A stretch of 64,000 nucleotides of DNA. Source: a bacterium (GTDB taxonomy: Bacteria; Bacteroidota; Ignavibacteria; Kapaibacteriales; UBA2268). Location of the stretch: positions 1 through 64,000 of the forward strand of contig JANJTB010000006.1 in NCBI GenBank assembly GCA_024711295.1, written 5' to 3'. Under the pieces are notes generated by a model that was given only the letters and a program-made list of their open reading frames with translations, made no database searches and had not been told where the DNA came from. Positions 47,494 to 58,924 of this stretch are shown here, in pieces; the first letter of the stretch is position 1, and the number at the start of each line of letters is the position of its first letter. A program made the translations under genes and the position numbers.

Positions 47494-48603
47494 ATGAAGA
47501 TCAAAAAAATAATTGCGAAAGATATAAAAGAAGGAAAAAGAAGAGTTTTAGAAGAGCTTGGCGAGGATGCTGTAATACTCTCAAATAGAGCTGTTAAGGA
47601 TGCTGACGGTTCGGATGCTGTAGAAATAGTTGCTGCTTTAGACGAAAATTCCAACAAACTCAAAACAGCAATGATCAAAGAGATAACGGACAACACTACT
47701 CAAAATATATCTAAAACGAATAAGATAAATATACCTCACAACAACGAAATTTTACTTCAGGAAATTGACAATCTAAAACTTATGCTTCTCGAAATAAATG
47801 AAAGTATTAAGTATCGGAACACATCATCAATGTCGCCAGTATATGCAAAACTGTATAAAAAAATGCGAACACTTGATATTAATGATGATATTGCCTTGAA
47901 AGTTATTAACAGAATATCAGGATTGGGAAATTTGAAAGATTATGATGAAGTACTTTTCGAAGCTAGGAAAATACTTTTAGAAAATATTGAAATTGACAAA
48001 ACAATACAGAAAGGGACAAAAACAAAAATTATTCTGTTTACCGGTACCACCGGTAGTGGCAAGACGGCCTCTTTAGTTAAATTAGCAATTATCAGCAAGA
48101 TTGTACAAAATGCAAATTCTCTAATTATATCTGCTGATACTTACAAAGTTGGAGCCGCTGAACAATTAGAAACCTATGCTTCTATAGCGTCAATTCAATT
48201 CAAAGCAGCATATACTAACGAAGATTTAGCAAATATTATTCAAGAGAATTTGACAAAAGATTTTATATTTATTGATACAACAGGATTCTCTCAAAAAGAT
48301 ACTGAACAACTAAATCAGTTAAATGAGATAATTAAACTGGCTAAACCAGATTATATTTATCTAACCATACCTGCTACAATTTCTGAATTACACGCAAATT
48401 CAATTTTCATGGCATTGAGAAATATGACTATTGATAGTGTTATAATAACAAAAACTGATGAGTCTGAGTCAATTGGAAGTCTGATTAATATCATTAGAAA
48501 TTACAAACTTCCGATTTCTTATATTACAAATGGAATTAAGATTCCTGAAGATATTCTTCCTGCTGACAGAGTAATATTAGGTAAGTTGTGTTTGAATAAT
48601 TGA
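47494..48603 (+). CDS. flhF: Flagellar biosynthesis GTPase FlhF (SRP-type)
   Basis: A 369-residue SIMIBI GTPase. The G domain shows P-loop GTTGSGKTASLVKLA, 'SADTYKVGAAEQLETYA', 'FIDTTGFSQKD' and 'ITKTDES', all diagnostic for FlhF. 'PISYITNGIKIPEDI' is near the C-terminus. FlhF sets the location and number of polar flagella and pairs with FlhG. A TATATTTG box at 47477-47484 lies 10 bases before the ATG, without a clear -33 element. It heads a nine-gene operon. No flagellar structural gene is in the window. Confidence 0.92.
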   Translation: MKIKKIIAKDIKEGKRRVLEELGEDAVILSNRAVKDADGSDAVEIVAALDENSNKLKTAMIKEITDNTTQNISKTNKINIPHNNEILLQEIDNLKLMLLEINESIKYRNTSSMSPVYAKLYKKMRTLDINDDIALKVINRISGLGNLKDYDEVLFEARKILLENIEIDKTIQKGTKTKIILFTGTTGSGKTASLVKLAIISKIVQNANSLIISADTYKVGAAEQLETYASIASIQFKAAYTNEDLANIIQENLTKDFIFIDTTGFSQKDTEQLNQLNEIIKLAKPDYIYLTIPATISELHANSIFMALRNMTIDSVIITKTDESESIGSLINIIRNYKLPISYITNGIKIPEDILPADRVILGKLCLNN

Positions 48604-49412
48604 TGGACAAATTTTCTCAAAATAATGATAAAAAAAATCCATTTACTATTACATTATGTAGTGGTAAAGGAGGAGTAGGTACTAGTTTCTTAACGGCAAA
48701 TCTTGCTTCAGCTGTTTCGAAACTTGGTAATAAGGTATTAATACTTGATTCCGTTCTTGACTTACCTAATCAACATATTTTATTTGGTGTCGAGCCACCG
48801 GTGAGACTGAGTTCAGTACTTTCCGGAAAAGTAAATGTTGATTCAGCTTTGTACAAAATAGATTACAATATTTCGTTATTAGTTGACTCACCAATAGAGA
48901 TTGATGATGATAATGACCATATACTGTCATTAAAAGAGGTTGTTAATCAACTCAAATCAGAATGTGAAAAAGAGTTTTTATTTATTGATGTACAATCTGG
49001 TATATCAGAAGAATTGATAGCGCTTTCGAAATTATCCGATTTAGTATTGATAGTCATTACTGACGAACCTACGTCATTAATTGATGCTTATGGCTTACTT
49101 AAAATCCTTAGAAATTATGTTGATATCAGTAAAATTGCATTAATCGTAAACAATGTAATAGATGATGAGGACGCAGGTGAACTATCTCATAAATTTAACT
49201 TGGCATCAACCCAGTTCTTAGGATTAAAAATTGATGTTTTAGGTTTTGTACCTTATAGTCGGAATGTTAGATATTCCATTCAAAGACAAGAAATATTGGT
49301 AAATAATTTTGAAGATGATGAGGCTTCGTCAGCCATTTTGAATATATCAAAAAAAATTCATTCAAAATATTTTGTTTCGTCGTATAATACTAAAATGATT
49401 GAAGTTTTATAA
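48603..49412 (+). CDS. flhG: FlhG/MinD-like ATPase with a modified P-loop
   Basis: A 269-residue ParA/MinD family protein; the start ATG overlaps the flhF stop (TGATG). The deviant Walker A reads SGKGGVGTS. The signature Lys is present, but the P-loop Lys that normally precedes Thr/Ser is Thr (residue 27). Switch-like 'FIDVQSGISEELIALSKLSD' and the FlhG-typical 'TDEPTSLIDAYGLLKIL' are kept. A basic, amphipathic C-terminus that could bind membrane is present. It normally limits flagellar number with FlhF. Confidence 0.88.
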   Translation: MDKFSQNNDKKNPFTITLCSGKGGVGTSFLTANLASAVSKLGNKVLILDSVLDLPNQHILFGVEPPVRLSSVLSGKVNVDSALYKIDYNISLLVDSPIEIDDDNDHILSLKEVVNQLKSECEKEFLFIDVQSGISEELIALSKLSDLVLIVITDEPTSLIDAYGLLKILRNYVDISKIALIVNNVIDDEDAGELSHKFNLASTQFLGLKIDVLGFVPYSRNVRYSIQRQEILVNNFEDDEASSAILNISKKIHSKYFVSSYNTKMIEVL

Positions 49413-49427
49413 AAGAGAGTTTTTATT

Positions 49428-49952
49428 ATGGCAAAGAAAAGTAATGAAAAACCCACAGATAACGAAAAGAAGTATCAAAAGAAAGTTGCTCAGGAAAAGA
49501 AGAAGCTTGAAAGAATAATTAGTACTCCACCTAAAGCTGTTCTAATGTTATCTTTGATTGTAGGTTTACTGACTTTTACTTTCACCTTTTTCGGAAATCT
49601 AAAAGATCCAATATCTGCCATATTACAATCTTTTATAGCTTTTTCTATTGCATTTATTGGTATTGGATTTAGTGTTTCGCTTTATTTTTATTATAAAAGT
49701 GAAGCTTTAAAAAAAGAATATCATCAAATGGTATTGAATGAAAAACAAGATAGGGAGCAGGCTGAGCAACAGAGAATAAGAAATGAAATAAGTGAGCTTG
49801 AAGCAATTGAGCGTGAACTCGCTGATAAAAGGAGTAAGTCATCTGTAAATCGATCAGGTAATGATGAGCAGGCTCCAAGATATTCAAGAAATACTTTATC
49901 TGATGAAGAAGCATACTTGGATGAAGTATTGAACAGCAACTTTACACCTTAA
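49428..49952 (+). CDS. Hypothetical two-helix membrane protein between flhG and fliA
   Basis: A 174-residue protein with a highly charged N-terminus. Two membrane helices lie at about 36-56 and 68-90. A Glu/Lys/Gln-rich coiled coil covers about 95-135, followed by a polar tail. I do not recognise the family. The layout (both ends cytoplasmic, a coiled coil after the hairpin) suits a membrane scaffold. Tight spacing (15 bp on each side) places it in the FlhF/FlhG/FliA unit. Confidence 0.6.
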   Translation: MAKKSNEKPTDNEKKYQKKVAQEKKKLERIISTPPKAVLMLSLIVGLLTFTFTFFGNLKDPISAILQSFIAFSIAFIGIGFSVSLYFYYKSEALKKEYHQMVLNEKQDREQAEQQRIRNEISELEAIERELADKRSKSSVNRSGNDEQAPRYSRNTLSDEEAYLDEVLNSNFTP

Positions 49953-49967
49953 TAAACTCAGGAATTG

Positions 49968-50750
49968 ATGCAAACAAAAAATGCTGATATTGAAAGTGTT
50001 TGGAAATTATTTAAAGCAAATGCAACTGTGATTAATAAACAGTTGCTTGTTGTTCATTATATTAATTTAGTAAAGTACACAATCAGCAAAATGGCATTGC
50101 CAATAAACACAATTCTCGAAGAAGACGATTTTATAAATTTCGGGGTTATTGGTCTCAGCGAAGCAATTGACAGGTTCGAACCTGAAAGAGGTTTTAAATT
50201 CGAGTCTTATGCAATCAAGAGGATTCGTGGAAAAATTCAGGATGAAATGAGAAAATTAGACTGGATGTCACGAACAGCCCGCAAAAGAGCTAATGAATTT
50301 AAATCAATTTCAGATAGTTTAGAACTAAAAAGGGATTCCGGTGCCAGCGAAAGCGAAGTGCTCAAAGAGCTAAATATTAGTCCTGAGCAGTATAGAAATT
50401 ATTTGCTAGCTGCATCAGATGCCAAATCTTCTATACCAATAACAGACAGTTCTCTAAAGAGCATAAACGATGATGATGAAGAGGTTAATTTTGTTGAAGA
50501 GATTCCTGATGATGTTCCTGATTTCTTAACTGACATTATCGAAGATGAAAAGCAGAAGTTACTCATAAGATTGGTAAGCAATCTGAAAGAAAATAAAAAG
50601 TTAGTACTTACACTTTATTATTTTGAAAACCTGAATTTCAAGCAAATAGGTCAAGTGCTTGGTGTATCTGAAGGAAGAATTTCACAAATTCATTCTGAAA
50701 CTATCAAGGATTTGAAACATCAGTTGGGCAGGTACGATTATGCTTACTAA
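49968..50750 (+). CDS. fliA: Sigma-28 family RNA polymerase sigma factor FliA (WhiG-like)
   Basis: A 260-residue sigma factor. Region 2 'EEDDFINFGVIGLSEAIDRF' with 'GFKFESYAIKRIRGKIQDEM' is typical of FliA/WhiG, and region 3 includes 'DWMSRTARKRANEF'. Region 4 ends with 'YFENLNFKQIGQVLGVSEGR'. The frame includes an upstream TTG at 49965, but the ATG at 49968 is the better start, preceded by AGGA. It would direct late flagellar or motility genes. The last 11 bp overlap the HDOD gene. Confidence 0.93.
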   Translation: MQTKNADIESVWKLFKANATVINKQLLVVHYINLVKYTISKMALPINTILEEDDFINFGVIGLSEAIDRFEPERGFKFESYAIKRIRGKIQDEMRKLDWMSRTARKRANEFKSISDSLELKRDSGASESEVLKELNISPEQYRNYLLAASDAKSSIPITDSSLKSINDDDEEVNFVEEIPDDVPDFLTDIIEDEKQKLLIRLVSNLKENKKLVLTLYYFENLNFKQIGQVLGVSEGRISQIHSETIKDLKHQLGRYDYAY

Positions 50751-51681
50751 CAGGGTTAAAACAAAACTTGAATCTATTAGAGATTTACCCACAATACCGA
50801 TTGTAATTTCAGAAGTATTGGCAGCTATAGATAATCCAAAGTCAAGTGCTGCAAGCCTAGCGAAGATAATCGAAAAGGACCAGGCTCTCACCGCAAGAGT
50901 GCTTAGAATTGCCAATTCACCATTTTATGGTTATACACGCCAAATATCAACAATTGATTTGGCTATCGTAATTATGGGATTTAATACACTGAAGGAAATT
51001 GTTCTTAGTATTGTAATTCAAAGATTTTTCTCGAAAGTAAATACAAAACTCTTTAATATCAGAGATTTTTGGCAATATGGTTTGTTCTGTGGGTCAACTG
51101 CCAGATTGTTATCACGCAAATTAGGCTACAAAATTGCCGGTGAAGCCTTTGTGGCAGGTCTGATGCATGATATCGGAATAATTATTATTGCTGAGTATTT
51201 TACACCGAAGTTTAAAGAAATCATAAAATTTGCTAATGAAAACAATGTTTCATTAATTGATGCTGAACAAGCAATAATGGAATGTACTCATGCTGAAATC
51301 GGAGCTTGGATAGCAGATAAATGGAATTTGCCTGATAAAATGGTAACAGCAATCAGAAATCATCATATTAATTACGCTTTTTTTGCCAAAAACAATGATT
51401 TTGATGCTTACTCAGAATCAGATACATTAATTAGAGATATTGATCAACCTTTGACAGCAATAGTTTCATTAGCTGAATGGTTTGCTGATTTGTTGGGTTT
51501 GTCGAAATGGATGGGTAGTCTTATCAAGCCGGACTATTATCTTTCTACTGAAGTTTTTGGAGAATTAAATAGTGAAGATATTCTTGACCCTGAAAGTTCC
51601 TTATTTGCACTTAAAGCAGAATTAATGGAAGAGTTTGAAAAAGCGAATATATTCATTGAGTTACAGGTGAGTCATGCTTGA
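50740..51681 (+). CDS. HDOD domain signalling protein
   Basis: A 313-residue protein. The HDOD core (about 15-215) contains 'LPTIPIVISEVLAAIDNPKS', 'IEKDQALTARVLRIANSPFY' and 'GLMHDIGI'. HDOD proteins act in chemotaxis, motility and signalling without a proven catalytic activity. The gene overlaps fliA by 11 bp and the pseudokinase gene by 8 bp, so the three are probably co-translated and may act in one pathway. Confidence 0.88.
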   Translation: MLTNRVKTKLESIRDLPTIPIVISEVLAAIDNPKSSAASLAKIIEKDQALTARVLRIANSPFYGYTRQISTIDLAIVIMGFNTLKEIVLSIVIQRFFSKVNTKLFNIRDFWQYGLFCGSTARLLSRKLGYKIAGEAFVAGLMHDIGIIIIAEYFTPKFKEIIKFANENNVSLIDAEQAIMECTHAEIGAWIADKWNLPDKMVTAIRNHHINYAFFAKNNDFDAYSESDTLIRDIDQPLTAIVSLAEWFADLLGLSKWMGSLIKPDYYLSTEVFGELNSEDILDPESSLFALKAELMEEFEKANIFIELQVSHA

Positions 51682-54841: not shown

Positions 54842-55891
54842 TTGAAAAAAGAAATACTAATTTATTCGAAGTGTTTAATAATGATTGCACTATTGGCTAT
54901 TATTGGACACACTGATTTAAATTCTCAAAACTATTATGGTGGTTACTCTGAATCCTGGCTATCAAGAAATATAGGTGCTCGTCCATTGGCAATGGGTGGA
55001 GTCTACAGCGCTATAGTCAACGAACCAAACGGAATATTTTATAATCCTGCCGGAAGCAGTTTTATGTCGGATGTACCATCGTTTGCAACTTCAGTAAGCT
55101 CTATGGGATTAAACAGAACTTTTGCTTCATTGGCTTGGGCTCAGGAAATAATTCCTCAATTTGGATTAGGGTTTGGTATCAATAATCTCAATTCCGGAAG
55201 TTTCTTAAGCAGAAGTATTAATGGTGCACCTGTTCGTGACGTAAATAATAATCAAATATCAGCACTTCTGGCAGCTTCATATAGACTTGAATTTATAAGT
55301 ATGGGAGCATCTGTAAAATACCTTAACAACAGTTTAAGCGGAGCAAATATTTCTTCTACCGGAATAGCATTTGACTTAGGTGTAAAAATGAATGTAGCTG
55401 ACTTATTCAGCTTTGGCGTTGCTATGAATAATATTGGTGGCAGTATGAAATGGAATACATCATCACAAATATCCGAAAATATTCCATATACACTCAGAAC
55501 CGGTGTTGCTGTAGAGTTTGGACTAAATGAAGAAACAAAAGTAGCTCGTACAACAATTACTGGTGAAGAACAAACAGTTGTTATTCCTCCTACTCAGTAT
55601 ATTTTGTTGGGAATGGATGCTGTAATGAACCAGTTTGACAAAACACCTTCCTGGATAGTCGGAACGGAGGTAGTTTTTCATGAATTTTTTGCTTTAAGAG
55701 GCGGTCTCTCAATATATGGTGATAATGAAGGTAAACCTGAATTTTTACCAATGAATAATTGGGGAGCAGGTATAAGTTTAAGGCCCCAACTTGATATGGA
55801 TTTTTTGATGCAAATTGATTATTCTGTATCCAAAGAGTTTATTACAACAGATAGAATTGCCCATCATCTAACACTAATAATTGAACTCTAA
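54842..55891 (+). CDS. PorV/PorQ-family outer-membrane protein (UPF0164-like)
   Basis: A protein of about 349 residues. The frame is open from 54782, but the TTG at 54842 has a GAGG box and follows the preceding stop directly. The signal peptide ends near 'DLNSQ'. The barrel begins with 'WLSRNIGARPLAMGGVYSAI' and 'NPAGSSFM', the diagnostic PorV/PorQ N-terminal pattern, and continues as beta strands to the C-terminus. PorV shuttles T9SS cargo from the translocon to the PorU attachment complex. Whether this is PorV itself or a paralogue is uncertain. Its stop interlocks with the convergent channel gene (CTAA at 55888-55891). Confidence 0.82.
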   Translation: MKKEILIYSKCLIMIALLAIIGHTDLNSQNYYGGYSESWLSRNIGARPLAMGGVYSAIVNEPNGIFYNPAGSSFMSDVPSFATSVSSMGLNRTFASLAWAQEIIPQFGLGFGINNLNSGSFLSRSINGAPVRDVNNNQISALLAASYRLEFISMGASVKYLNNSLSGANISSTGIAFDLGVKMNVADLFSFGVAMNNIGGSMKWNTSSQISENIPYTLRTGVAVEFGLNEETKVARTTITGEEQTVVIPPTQYILLGMDAVMNQFDKTPSWIVGTEVVFHEFFALRGGLSIYGDNEGKPEFLPMNNWGAGISLRPQLDMDFLMQIDYSVSKEFITTDRIAHHLTLIIEL

Positions 55892-58182
55892 TTCTTGTAA
55901 TCAGTATTTATGGCAACAACATAAACTTTCATACCATCTTCAACTGTAAAAACATCAGATTTTTGAGGATTTACCACCGCTTTCCCTGCGCTTGTCAGGT
56001 AGCCCAAAGCTATTTCATTTCTACGCGAGCAAGCTTCAGTAACTGCATAAAAATCTATCTTTGAATTAATTTCAAAATATTTATTCAATTCCCGTACATA
56101 TATTTCGCTTCCATAATTGGAAAAAAGCTCGTTATATACTTCAAATAATCGCTTATCTTCTGAAATTTGCGCTATGTAAGCACTAACAATATCAGGACCT
56201 ACAATGAAATCTCCCGCCATTTGGGCAGAAACCAGCTTTTCGTTTTCTCTTATCAATAATTCTGCGGCTAAATTAAAATTGCATTGCAACTCTTTTTGTA
56301 TTAATCTCAAATTGATTATTTTTAATATTGTGCTTGAGTCACAATCATTAAAATTTGATATTTCATTATAATTGCTTAATACAATAATGTGCTGATATTT
56401 CGAAATGTTGTATTTGATTAAATCTTTTCTTAAGCTTGTCTTACCAGTCTGATAGCTAATATTGCTGAAATTGTTTTCGGATACTATTTCGCTAATTGCA
56501 TCAAAAAAATCTTGTGAATCAGTAATAATATGAATATTGAGCTTAGAAAGCCCTGATGAAACTAATTCATTTAATATAAGTTCACCCTTATGATTCCAAC
56601 CTATGATTAAAAGATTATTCTCATTAGATTCTGAATTATCTTTTAATGCAATCTTATTAAAGTAGTTATCAATTTTATCTTTTTTTCTTTTTATTTTGAT
56701 AGTTGAATCATCTTCGCTTAATATAATAACCTGATCATCTTTTTCAAAAATTGTATTGTAATCAGGATTAATTTTTATACTTCCATCTTTTGTCCAGATG
56801 CCAATTGGCACACATGAATCATAAATAAATAATGATTCGTAGAAGGATTTACCAATTAACTTTGGTTCGTCAGCTATATAAATTTCACTTCCATCAAATC
56901 CAATTATCTGCTCGTAAATTTTGGATAAACCACTATTTATAGCTGCCTGAGATATTATTTTAGCAACCATTTCCTCGGTAGATATTATTATTCCATTATT
57001 GCCGATAAGCTCTTTAGCCATTTTAGCATTCTCGTTATCATCCAGATCTGCAATTACATTAAAATGTTCATCTGAATTGTGCTTACTTTCGTTCCAGGCA
57101 TGATTAAGCGCAAGTATTTGCTTTATAGTATTCACATCATCGTGTTTCCCCTGCTCATCCTGGGATAAAATAATTACTGATTTTGCAAACTCAGGCCTCA
57201 CAACTTTTAAGTAATCTAAATTTGTTGGTATGCCTTCTCTTATGGAAAGCTTAACATGTTTAAAATCGGGTATATGAAAACTAATTTCGTCATTCATTTC
57301 TTGTTTGCTCTTATTGGCAAGAATAACTATTGAAGCCCTTGACTCACTTTGATTAGCTATCAAAAGGTTATCTAAAATCGCAAAAATCTGTTGTGACCAA
57401 CCCAAAATTAATGTATGACCGGATTTATATACAGTTTGGAATGACTTGTTTTCTTCTAGCTTAGATTCACCAATTTCTGAAGTTAGGATGCCAATAAACA
57501 AGTTTAGGAAAATCATCGCTGCCAACAAAACAAAACTAATAAAATAGGTAACAACAACAGCATCGCTCATACCTTCATCAAGTGCTTTTTTGATTCCGCT
57601 GCCTTCATCATATACCCAAGACCACCCTTCGAATGATACAAAGAAAAGTGTTTTCATTGAACTAAGTATCGAACCAAATGAATCAGGTTCGTACTTGCCA
57701 AATAAGTCAGTACCTATTACTGCAAATATATAAAACTGCATTAACAGTAAGATAATAACATAAGACATCGAAGGGATAGACCTCAATAGAGATTGTATTA
57801 TTATCTTGAGATTGTGTACTCTCTCGAAAAGTTTCAACATTCGTAGTACACGGGCAAGCCTTAGAATTACAAAAAAATTGGTATGAAATTCAGGAACAAA
57901 GTACGGTATAAAACAAACTGCTACTATTATGAAATCAAATATAAACCAACCATCTGTTAATAACCTAAGTGGTTTGTTATAATCAGCTATAATTCTGACG
58001 ACCAATTCGAATACAAAAATCCACAATACTAAATTGTCGAGCAATTTCAACAAGCTGTTGTGCTTCGATACTATTTCGGGATAAGTTTCTAACCCTACTA
58101 AAATTCCGGCAAATATTATTACGCCAAAAATTATATTCTCAAACCACCTTGAATCTCGAATGGTTATTATCTTATCAATCAA
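55888..58182 (-). CDS. Voltage-gated cation channel fused to CASTOR/POLLUX-type double RCK domains
   Basis: A 764-residue protein. Residues 15-235 form a six-helix channel. The S4 helix carries R108, R111, R114, K117 and R121. The pore region has T178-L-F-F-V-S-F-E185-G-W187, resembling NaChBac/NaV filters (TLESW type) rather than the K+ filter TVGYG. S6 is near 215-234. The cytoplasmic half has two Rossmann-like modules starting 'HTLILGWSQQIFAIL' (256) and 'NLLIIGWNHKGE' (523). Segments such as 'GFDGSEIYI', 'DIVSAYIAQISEDKRLFEVY' and 'ELFSNYGSEIYVRE' resemble plant CASTOR/POLLUX/DMI1 channels. It probably conducts Na+ or Ca2+ and is gated by voltage plus a cytoplasmic ligand, by inference. 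Confidence 0.9.
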   Translation of the reverse strand: MIDKIITIRDSRWFENIIFGVIIFAGILVGLETYPEIVSKHNSLLKLLDNLVLWIFVFELVVRIIADYNKPLRLLTDGWFIFDFIIVAVCFIPYFVPEFHTNFFVILRLARVLRMLKLFERVHNLKIIIQSLLRSIPSMSYVIILLLMQFYIFAVIGTDLFGKYEPDSFGSILSSMKTLFFVSFEGWSWVYDEGSGIKKALDEGMSDAVVVTYFISFVLLAAMIFLNLFIGILTSEIGESKLEENKSFQTVYKSGHTLILGWSQQIFAILDNLLIANQSESRASIVILANKSKQEMNDEISFHIPDFKHVKLSIREGIPTNLDYLKVVRPEFAKSVIILSQDEQGKHDDVNTIKQILALNHAWNESKHNSDEHFNVIADLDDNENAKMAKELIGNNGIIISTEEMVAKIISQAAINSGLSKIYEQIIGFDGSEIYIADEPKLIGKSFYESLFIYDSCVPIGIWTKDGSIKINPDYNTIFEKDDQVIILSEDDSTIKIKRKKDKIDNYFNKIALKDNSESNENNLLIIGWNHKGELILNELVSSGLSKLNIHIITDSQDFFDAISEIVSENNFSNISYQTGKTSLRKDLIKYNISKYQHIIVLSNYNEISNFNDCDSSTILKIINLRLIQKELQCNFNLAAELLIRENEKLVSAQMAGDFIVGPDIVSAYIAQISEDKRLFEVYNELFSNYGSEIYVRELNKYFEINSKIDFYAVTEACSRRNEIALGYLTSAGKAVVNPQKSDVFTVEDGMKVYVVAINTDYKN

Positions 58183-58200: not shown

Positions 58201-58896
58201 TTATATTTTTGTAATTTCTAAATATATTGAGCCCAGATACCTTTTACCTTTAGCTTGTTTTTTTGCTGGTGGAGGATTATCAGGGTCAGTGGTCGGATTA
58301 CTTTGAACAGTAATTCTTGTTTCTTCTATTCCATTTTGGATAAAATACTTCTTAAGTGCTTCACATCTTTCGGTGGTAATTTGCTGATTAAATTGTCTGT
58401 CACCATCGTTATCAGGGAAAGCAGCAATCTTAAAATCAACTCTTCTGTTCAACTTCATTGAATTCAACAAATCTTTTAGGAAAATATCTGCTCCGGGTCT
58501 GAGTTTTGACTTTCCTAAATCAAAAGGAATAACTCTCAAAGGGAATTTGAGTCCGATTTGTTTTGGTTTAACAACAAAGTCTTTTGAATATTCAGCGTAC
58601 TTCTTGGTATTCGGTACCTGAAATTCATGAGAATCAGAGAAATAACTGAAATCCATAAATTTTAAATAATACACTGAATCAGGTTTTAGACCTGTAATAA
58701 AGTAATAACCATCTTTTGAATTTGATCTAGATATACCTATCTGCTTACCTTCTGTATTGAATAACCTGATGTCTATACCGATTGGTTCTTTCGTAAGCTC
58801 ATTTTTTATACTACCTGTTATAGACACAATTGTACTTTGTGCAAATAACATTCCTGATGCCAACAAAATTGTTAAAGTTGAATATACGAATTTCAT
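58201..58896 (-). CDS. Small OmpA-like periplasmic or outer-membrane protein
   Basis: About 231 residues. The frame is open from a GTG at 58905, but the ATG at 58896 has an AAGGTG box at good spacing and gives a clean signal peptide (MKFVYSTLTILLASGMLFAQ). A carboxypeptidase-regulatory-like beta domain (about 25-110) precedes a degenerate OmpA C-terminal domain (about 120-225). The latter contains 'VDFKIAAFPDNDGDRQFNQQ' and 'RCEALKKYFIQNGIEETRI', but the usual HTD is FPDND. Peptidoglycan binding may be weak. Confidence 0.8.
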   Translation of the reverse strand: MKFVYSTLTILLASGMLFAQSTIVSITGSIKNELTKEPIGIDIRLFNTEGKQIGISRSNSKDGYYFITGLKPDSVYYLKFMDFSYFSDSHEFQVPNTKKYAEYSKDFVVKPKQIGLKFPLRVIPFDLGKSKLRPGADIFLKDLLNSMKLNRRVDFKIAAFPDNDGDRQFNQQITTERCEALKKYFIQNGIEETRITVQSNPTTDPDNPPPAKKQAKGKRYLGSIYLEITKI

Positions 58897-58924
58897 AACC
58901 ATCACCTTAATGCTTTTAAAAATA

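Follow-up and report, generated by a model that had tools for sequence, protein, structure and literature searches.

A NaV/CaV-type voltage-gated domain joined to a CASTOR/POLLUX-type double RCK module in one bacterial polypeptide

The fusion gene and its surroundings

The window analysed here is the whole 64,000-nucleotide stretch at positions 1–64,000 of contig JANJTB010000006.1 (assembly GCA_024711295.1), from a bacterium of the lineage Bacteroidota; Ignavibacteria; Kapaibacteriales; UBA2268. On its minus strand, 55888..58182 holds an uninterrupted gene of 764 codons that starts with TTG. The encoded protein is a fusion of a NaV/CaV-type voltage-gated domain and a CASTOR/POLLUX-type double RCK module in a single polypeptide. 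Pfam searches placed Ion_trans at residues 11–242 (E 8.1e-40), Castor_Poll_mid at residues 403–503 (56674..56976, minus strand; E 4.9e-27, 94 bits against a cut-off of 26.7) and Slo-like_RCK at residues 538–632 (E 6e-11). The Pfam text on Castor_Poll_mid ("part of voltage-gated ion channel") was given no weight as evidence, and an NCBIfam search of the protein gave no meaningful match. When the protein was compared with PDB chains using phmmer, CaV, NaV and NaChBac chains matched residues 8–246, and the best matches of the double RCK module were LjCASTOR (residues 250–629 and 638–741, E 2e-47) and MtDMI1 (E 4.5e-46). RCK1 occupies about residues 254–497 (56692..57423, minus strand), as delimited by PDB matches, model, alignment and fold match, and RCK2 about residues 520–760 (55903..56625, minus strand), as delimited by Pfam, PDB matches, model and fold match.

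An AlphaFold model of the whole protein was built from 81 sequences, all drawn from the window and the retrieved loci, and reached a mean pLDDT of 91.5 and a pTM of 0.81. The order of elements in the model is S1–S4, the S4–S5 linker, S5, the pore helix and a long S6 that runs directly into two RCK domains. Foldseek comparison of this model gave the gating rings of MtDMI1 (7vm8) and LjCASTOR (6o7c) as best matches, over the C-terminal half and with a TM score of 0.88 of target, and whole-length matches to Slo1/BK ranked next. The membrane half, modelled separately (pLDDT 90.9), matched NavAb, CavAb, NaChBac and NavMs, with TM scores of 0.7–0.8 for NavAb, CavAb and NaChBac. A preliminary description of this locus had proposed that the two modules are joined in one polypeptide, and had expected the Ion_trans and Castor_Poll_mid profiles to match and structure prediction to return a voltage-sensor/pore fold. 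Both profiles match, the fold was obtained, and the domain, PDB and fold evidence agree on the joining.

An OmpA-family gene (58201..58905, minus strand; ORF list and neighbourhood comparison) lies 18 bp upstream of the fusion gene on the same strand. It is conserved in the congener that also carries a fusion (56% identity) and is a possible operon partner. Genes for an FlhF-like GTPase, an FlhG/MinD-like ATPase, a flagellar-type sigma-70 factor and an HDOD protein are found about 4–8 kb from the fusion gene (window 47494–51681), and the cluster lies at a similar distance of about 4–8 kb from the congener's fusion (L061). The window shares no neighbours other than the OmpA-like gene and the flagellar cluster, and shares them with the congener alone; unrelated genes surround the fusions of the remaining genomes. 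The authors who described CavMr have suggested a tie to Ca2+- or voltage-dependent swimming, and a similar link is possible for the fusion channel, though not supported by these data. Flagellin was considered as a functional partner and set aside, as all 13 genomes examined carry it whether or not they have the fusion, so that it does not discriminate.

Voltage sensor, selectivity filter and gating ring

The voltage-sensor domain S1–S4 spans residues 12–121 (57820..58149, minus strand), as placed by Ion_trans, the model helices and alignment. Phe and Glu in S2 together with Asp in S3 make up the charge-transfer centre of NaV channels. F56, E59, D83, R108 and R114 are invariant across the 53 related channels aligned. 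The five S4 charges read in the preliminary description (R108, R111, R114, K117 and R121) are all present in S4, ILRLARVLRMLKLFER. The filter stretch TLFFVSFEGW (residues 178–187) and the RCK motifs HTLILGWS, GFDGSEIYI, SEDKRLFEVYNELF and GSEIYVRE likewise stand as it had listed them.

The pore domain (S5, pore helix and S6; Pfam, models and fold match) covers residues 136–247 (57442..57777, minus strand) and contains the selectivity filter SFEGWSW at residues 183–189 (57616..57636, minus strand; alignment). The filter fits the TxExW type, with Glu at position 3 and Trp at position 5, Ser replacing Thr at position 1, and the K+ filter TVGYG is absent from the protein. Position 4 is Gly, as in the CavMr filter TLEGWVD, where this residue sets Ca2+ selectivity, and animal CaV channels likewise keep a Gly at position 4 in their domains I and III (PMC7041947). 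The filter thus points to Ca2+ permeability, short of proof, and the balance tilts slightly towards Ca2+ as a main permeant ion. Full CavMr-like selectivity should not be assumed, since position 7 is Trp in the fusion protein and Asp in CavMr. The other full-length fusions have the filters AFEGWSW (G349), SFEGWSG (G346), MFDTWAE (G356) and TFDDWSE (G276).

The ion ligands reported for plant CASTOR (PMC6697748) were transferred to the fusion protein by alignment. CASTOR has been described as a Ca2+-activated Ca2+ channel, with an activating role proposed for the cluster II side-chain ligands S345, E493, D553 and D554, and an inhibitory role for the Ca2+/Mg2+ cluster I (D442, D444, H463, R589 and R590) (PMC6697748). 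Four of the four cluster II side-chain ligands are kept in the window's protein: S279 (57346..57348), equivalent to S345, a Ca(III) ligand; E433 (56884..56886), equivalent to E493, a Ca(II) ligand; and the pair D491–D492 (56707..56712), equivalent to D553–D554, Ca(III) ligands (all minus strand). E433 is invariant in 5/5 fusions and the D491/D492 pair is retained in 3/5; the proteins of the window, of G349 and of G276 retain the ligand residues. Cluster I is mostly lost, as D442 alone is kept (D382) and the other positions are E384, E403, N530 and H531. Ca2+ is predicted from these residues to activate the fusion channel without the strong inhibition at high Ca2+ seen in CASTOR; taken alone, the proposal that Ca2+ is the activating ligand has about an even chance.

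A different reading of the same residues is a voltage-gated channel that is mainly Na+-selective or non-selective, with an RCK ring that senses Na+/K+, a nucleotide or a metabolite and not Ca2+. Extra acidic residues need not cost BacNav relatives their Na+ selectivity, as NavPp shows with the filter TLEDWTD (PMC7041947), CASTOR itself is also modulated by Na+/K+, its recordings hint at further ligands or factors (PMC6697748), and two of the fusions combine different filters with a weakened cluster II. The window's own protein, however, has both the position-4 Gly and all four cluster II side-chain ligands, which leaves this reading rather improbable. As for nucleotide sensing, the HTLILGWS turn lacks GxGxxG, the motif typical of nucleotide-binding RCK domains.

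Comparison with characterized channels shows that the fusion is neither a standard BacNav, as the tail is replaced, nor a CASTOR, as the membrane part is replaced. The double RCK module has its best sequence and fold match in plant CASTOR/POLLUX/DMI1 (6o6j, 6o7c, 7vm8; PMC6697748), with which the fusion shares the cluster II ligands and the absence of TVGYG, but ring identity is only 25% and cluster I is largely lost. CASTOR resides in the nuclear envelope and has four predicted TM segments and the filter AD-S(A)-GNHA without a NaV-type voltage sensor, whereas the fusion is bacterial and has a six-TM NaV/CaV-type domain with SFEGWSW. CavMr and NavPp (ancestor-like BacNavs), NavAb and NaChBac share with it the six-TM sensor and pore, the S4 charges, the charge-transfer residues and the acidic filter ring, and CavMr also the filter Gly. 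BacNavs end in a short tail after S6, whereas S6 of the fusion enters about 510 residues of RCK ring. In overall plan, with a voltage sensor, a pore and a double RCK ring, the fusion resembles Slo1/BK and other RCK-gated K+ channels (Slo2.2, GsuK and MthK). Unlike Slo1/BK, it lacks TVGYG, its pore and sensor come from the NaV/CaV family, and its ring is of the CASTOR type, with Ca2+ sites that are not those of BK (PMC6697748). Within the same bacterial order, two-TM CASTOR-like channels (L005 and L079 among them) also carry a Castor_Poll_mid RCK, which for most order-mates has 29–34% identity to the window's ring, but they have a two-TM pore and neither an Ion_trans match nor a voltage sensor.

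Distribution and origin of the fusion

Full-length fusions were found in five genomes: the window's, the congener (G349), G346, G356 and G276. They span four genera and two families of one Kapabacteria/Ignavibacteria order, and their independent occurrence in four other genomes shows that the window's fusion is no assembly chimera. Identity to the window's protein ranges from 31 to 51% (51% for the congener, about 35% for G276, which belongs to another family), with gating charges and filter acid retained. In the order, 55 of 123 genomes carry a match, most matches being two-TM CASTOR-like proteins (about 620–690 residues) or stand-alone BacNav-like channels (about 300–350 residues). Among 396 genomes sampled from the phylum, the fusion was present in G000 and G276 only. 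A motif scan of 84,980 species, based on the junction alignment with just two degenerate motifs and with 80 of 151 relatives retained, found fusions nowhere outside these same order-mates; divergent fusions elsewhere may escape such motifs, as the G356 filter MFDTWAE matches neither of them. A single-sequence scan of GTDB genomes found nothing. The window's own genome has no second match at E 1e-15, and so seemingly has no close two-TM CASTOR-like protein or stand-alone channel; G356 holds both a fusion and a two-TM CASTOR-like protein.

The distribution is patchy even inside genera, with the fusion absent from G348, G345 and G284. In G347, a close copy of the G346 fusion on a short contig (L065:1-4299) has a frameshift near S6, for which sequencing error and real decay are indistinguishable. 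Further cases are possible in G350 and G385, where fragments of the channel sit at contig ends. Patchiness and the frameshifted copy are what a functionless fusion, accidental or in decay, could leave behind. Against this stand the five intact full-length copies, diverged yet with their gating charges and filter acid in place, and the G346/G347 pair, in which the channel half has a dN of 0.027 and a dS of 0.32, so that a dN/dS of about 0.08 indicates purifying selection. A fusion of that kind is very improbable; the fusion is real, conserved and rare.

In phylogenetic trees, the RCK modules of the four fusions from the window's family formed one clade (support 98/94, and 99/99 in a second tree), as did the channel halves of the same four fusions with two truncated copies (100/99). 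The G276 fusion was placed apart from them in both the RCK and the channel-half trees, which suggests that fusions may have arisen twice; a single origin was not rejected (p-AU 0.10 for the RCK part, 0.31 for the channel half). On the simplest reading, an ancestor-like BacNav was joined to a CASTOR ring of the two-TM type inside this order, once or twice. The trees also show that the RCK part of the fusions evolves fast. Such fast evolution, and the short C-terminal tail that stand-alone relatives carry at the same place, would suit an RCK module that serves mainly as a scaffold for assembly or stability, in place of the BacNav coiled-coil tail and without ligand gating. The retained ligand residues in three of the proteins (window, G349 and G276) and the complete double RCK fold, intact in the model, speak against this explanation, which we regard as unlikely.

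The preliminary description had offered two alternatives for the fusion, a form close to ancestral or a separate, poorly described bacterial family. The first is unsupported, because the fusions evolve fast, occur in a single order within the genomes searched and perhaps had two origins. Identity to plant CASTOR is 25% for the window's RCK module and 31.5% for that of the G276 fusion, against 28–34% for most two-TM CASTOR-like proteins from this order and phylum. The window's fusion was accordingly dropped as an ancestor of plant CASTOR, the two-TM bacterial proteins being closer in identity. In the literature searched, no description was found of this fusion or of any NaV/CaV-type channel with an RCK ring (preprints and most subscription papers lay outside its scope). 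Both modules are already known; their combination is undescribed in that literature. To our knowledge, RCK rings are otherwise a feature of K+ channels, K+ transporters and the CASTOR group. Two-TM CASTOR-like channels are common in this order and class (L002–L019 and L035–L060). They resemble plant CASTOR more closely than the fusion does and may be the better starting point for tracing the plant protein's origin.

Proposed working of the channel

The computations establish which domains are present, how they fold, which residues form the filter and the binding sites, and that the protein is conserved and under purifying selection; tetrameric assembly, voltage gating, Ca2+ permeation and Ca2+ activation we infer. 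The protein is probably a tetrameric voltage-gated Ca2+-permeable channel with a Ca2+-sensing gating ring, that is, a BK-like design with a CaV-type pore. This explanation is preferred because of the domains, folds, sensor residues, position-4 Gly and cluster II ligands, the Ca2+ activation of CASTOR and the five conserved fusions. The filters (MFDTW and TFDDW) and cluster II ligands that differ among fusions, the Trp at filter position 7 and the CASTOR recordings that hint at further ligands count against it. That the protein is a voltage-gated Na/Ca-type channel regulated by its own RCK ring is quite likely.

In the proposed working, four copies of the gene product would form a cation channel in the inner membrane; the protein would have originated when an ancestor-like BacNav took the place of the usual two-TM pore on a bacterial CASTOR-type ring. 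The NaV/CaV-type voltage sensor would open the pore, and the SFEGWSW filter would let Ca2+ through, possibly also Na+. The S6 helices would lead straight into eight RCK domains arranged as a CASTOR/DMI1-type ring. Cytosolic Ca2+ bound there at cluster II (S279, E433, D491 and D492) would promote opening by pulling on the S6 gate. Depolarisation and Ca2+ would thus be read jointly, as in BK, but with a Ca2+-type pore. More tentatively, and with the odds against it, voltage and cytosolic Ca2+ might jointly open Ca2+ entry in a self-reinforcing way, the activating and not the inhibitory CASTOR site being kept, which could support all-or-none Ca2+ signals in bacteria.

If functional, the fusion would be an example of a NaV/CaV pore under the control of a gating ring, and it would offer a single-gene system for studying the coupling of voltage and cytosolic Ca2+ in a Ca2+-permeable channel. 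The fusions also tie the CASTOR ring, for which the matched solved structures are of the ring alone, to a structurally well-understood membrane domain.

Among the stand-alone relatives, two distinct voltage-gated channels, both with the filter TGDGW, are encoded head to tail in G391 (L068:3433-5365) and G388 (L069:4317-6318), and G216 (L074) has just one of the two. The pair possibly forms a heteromeric channel.
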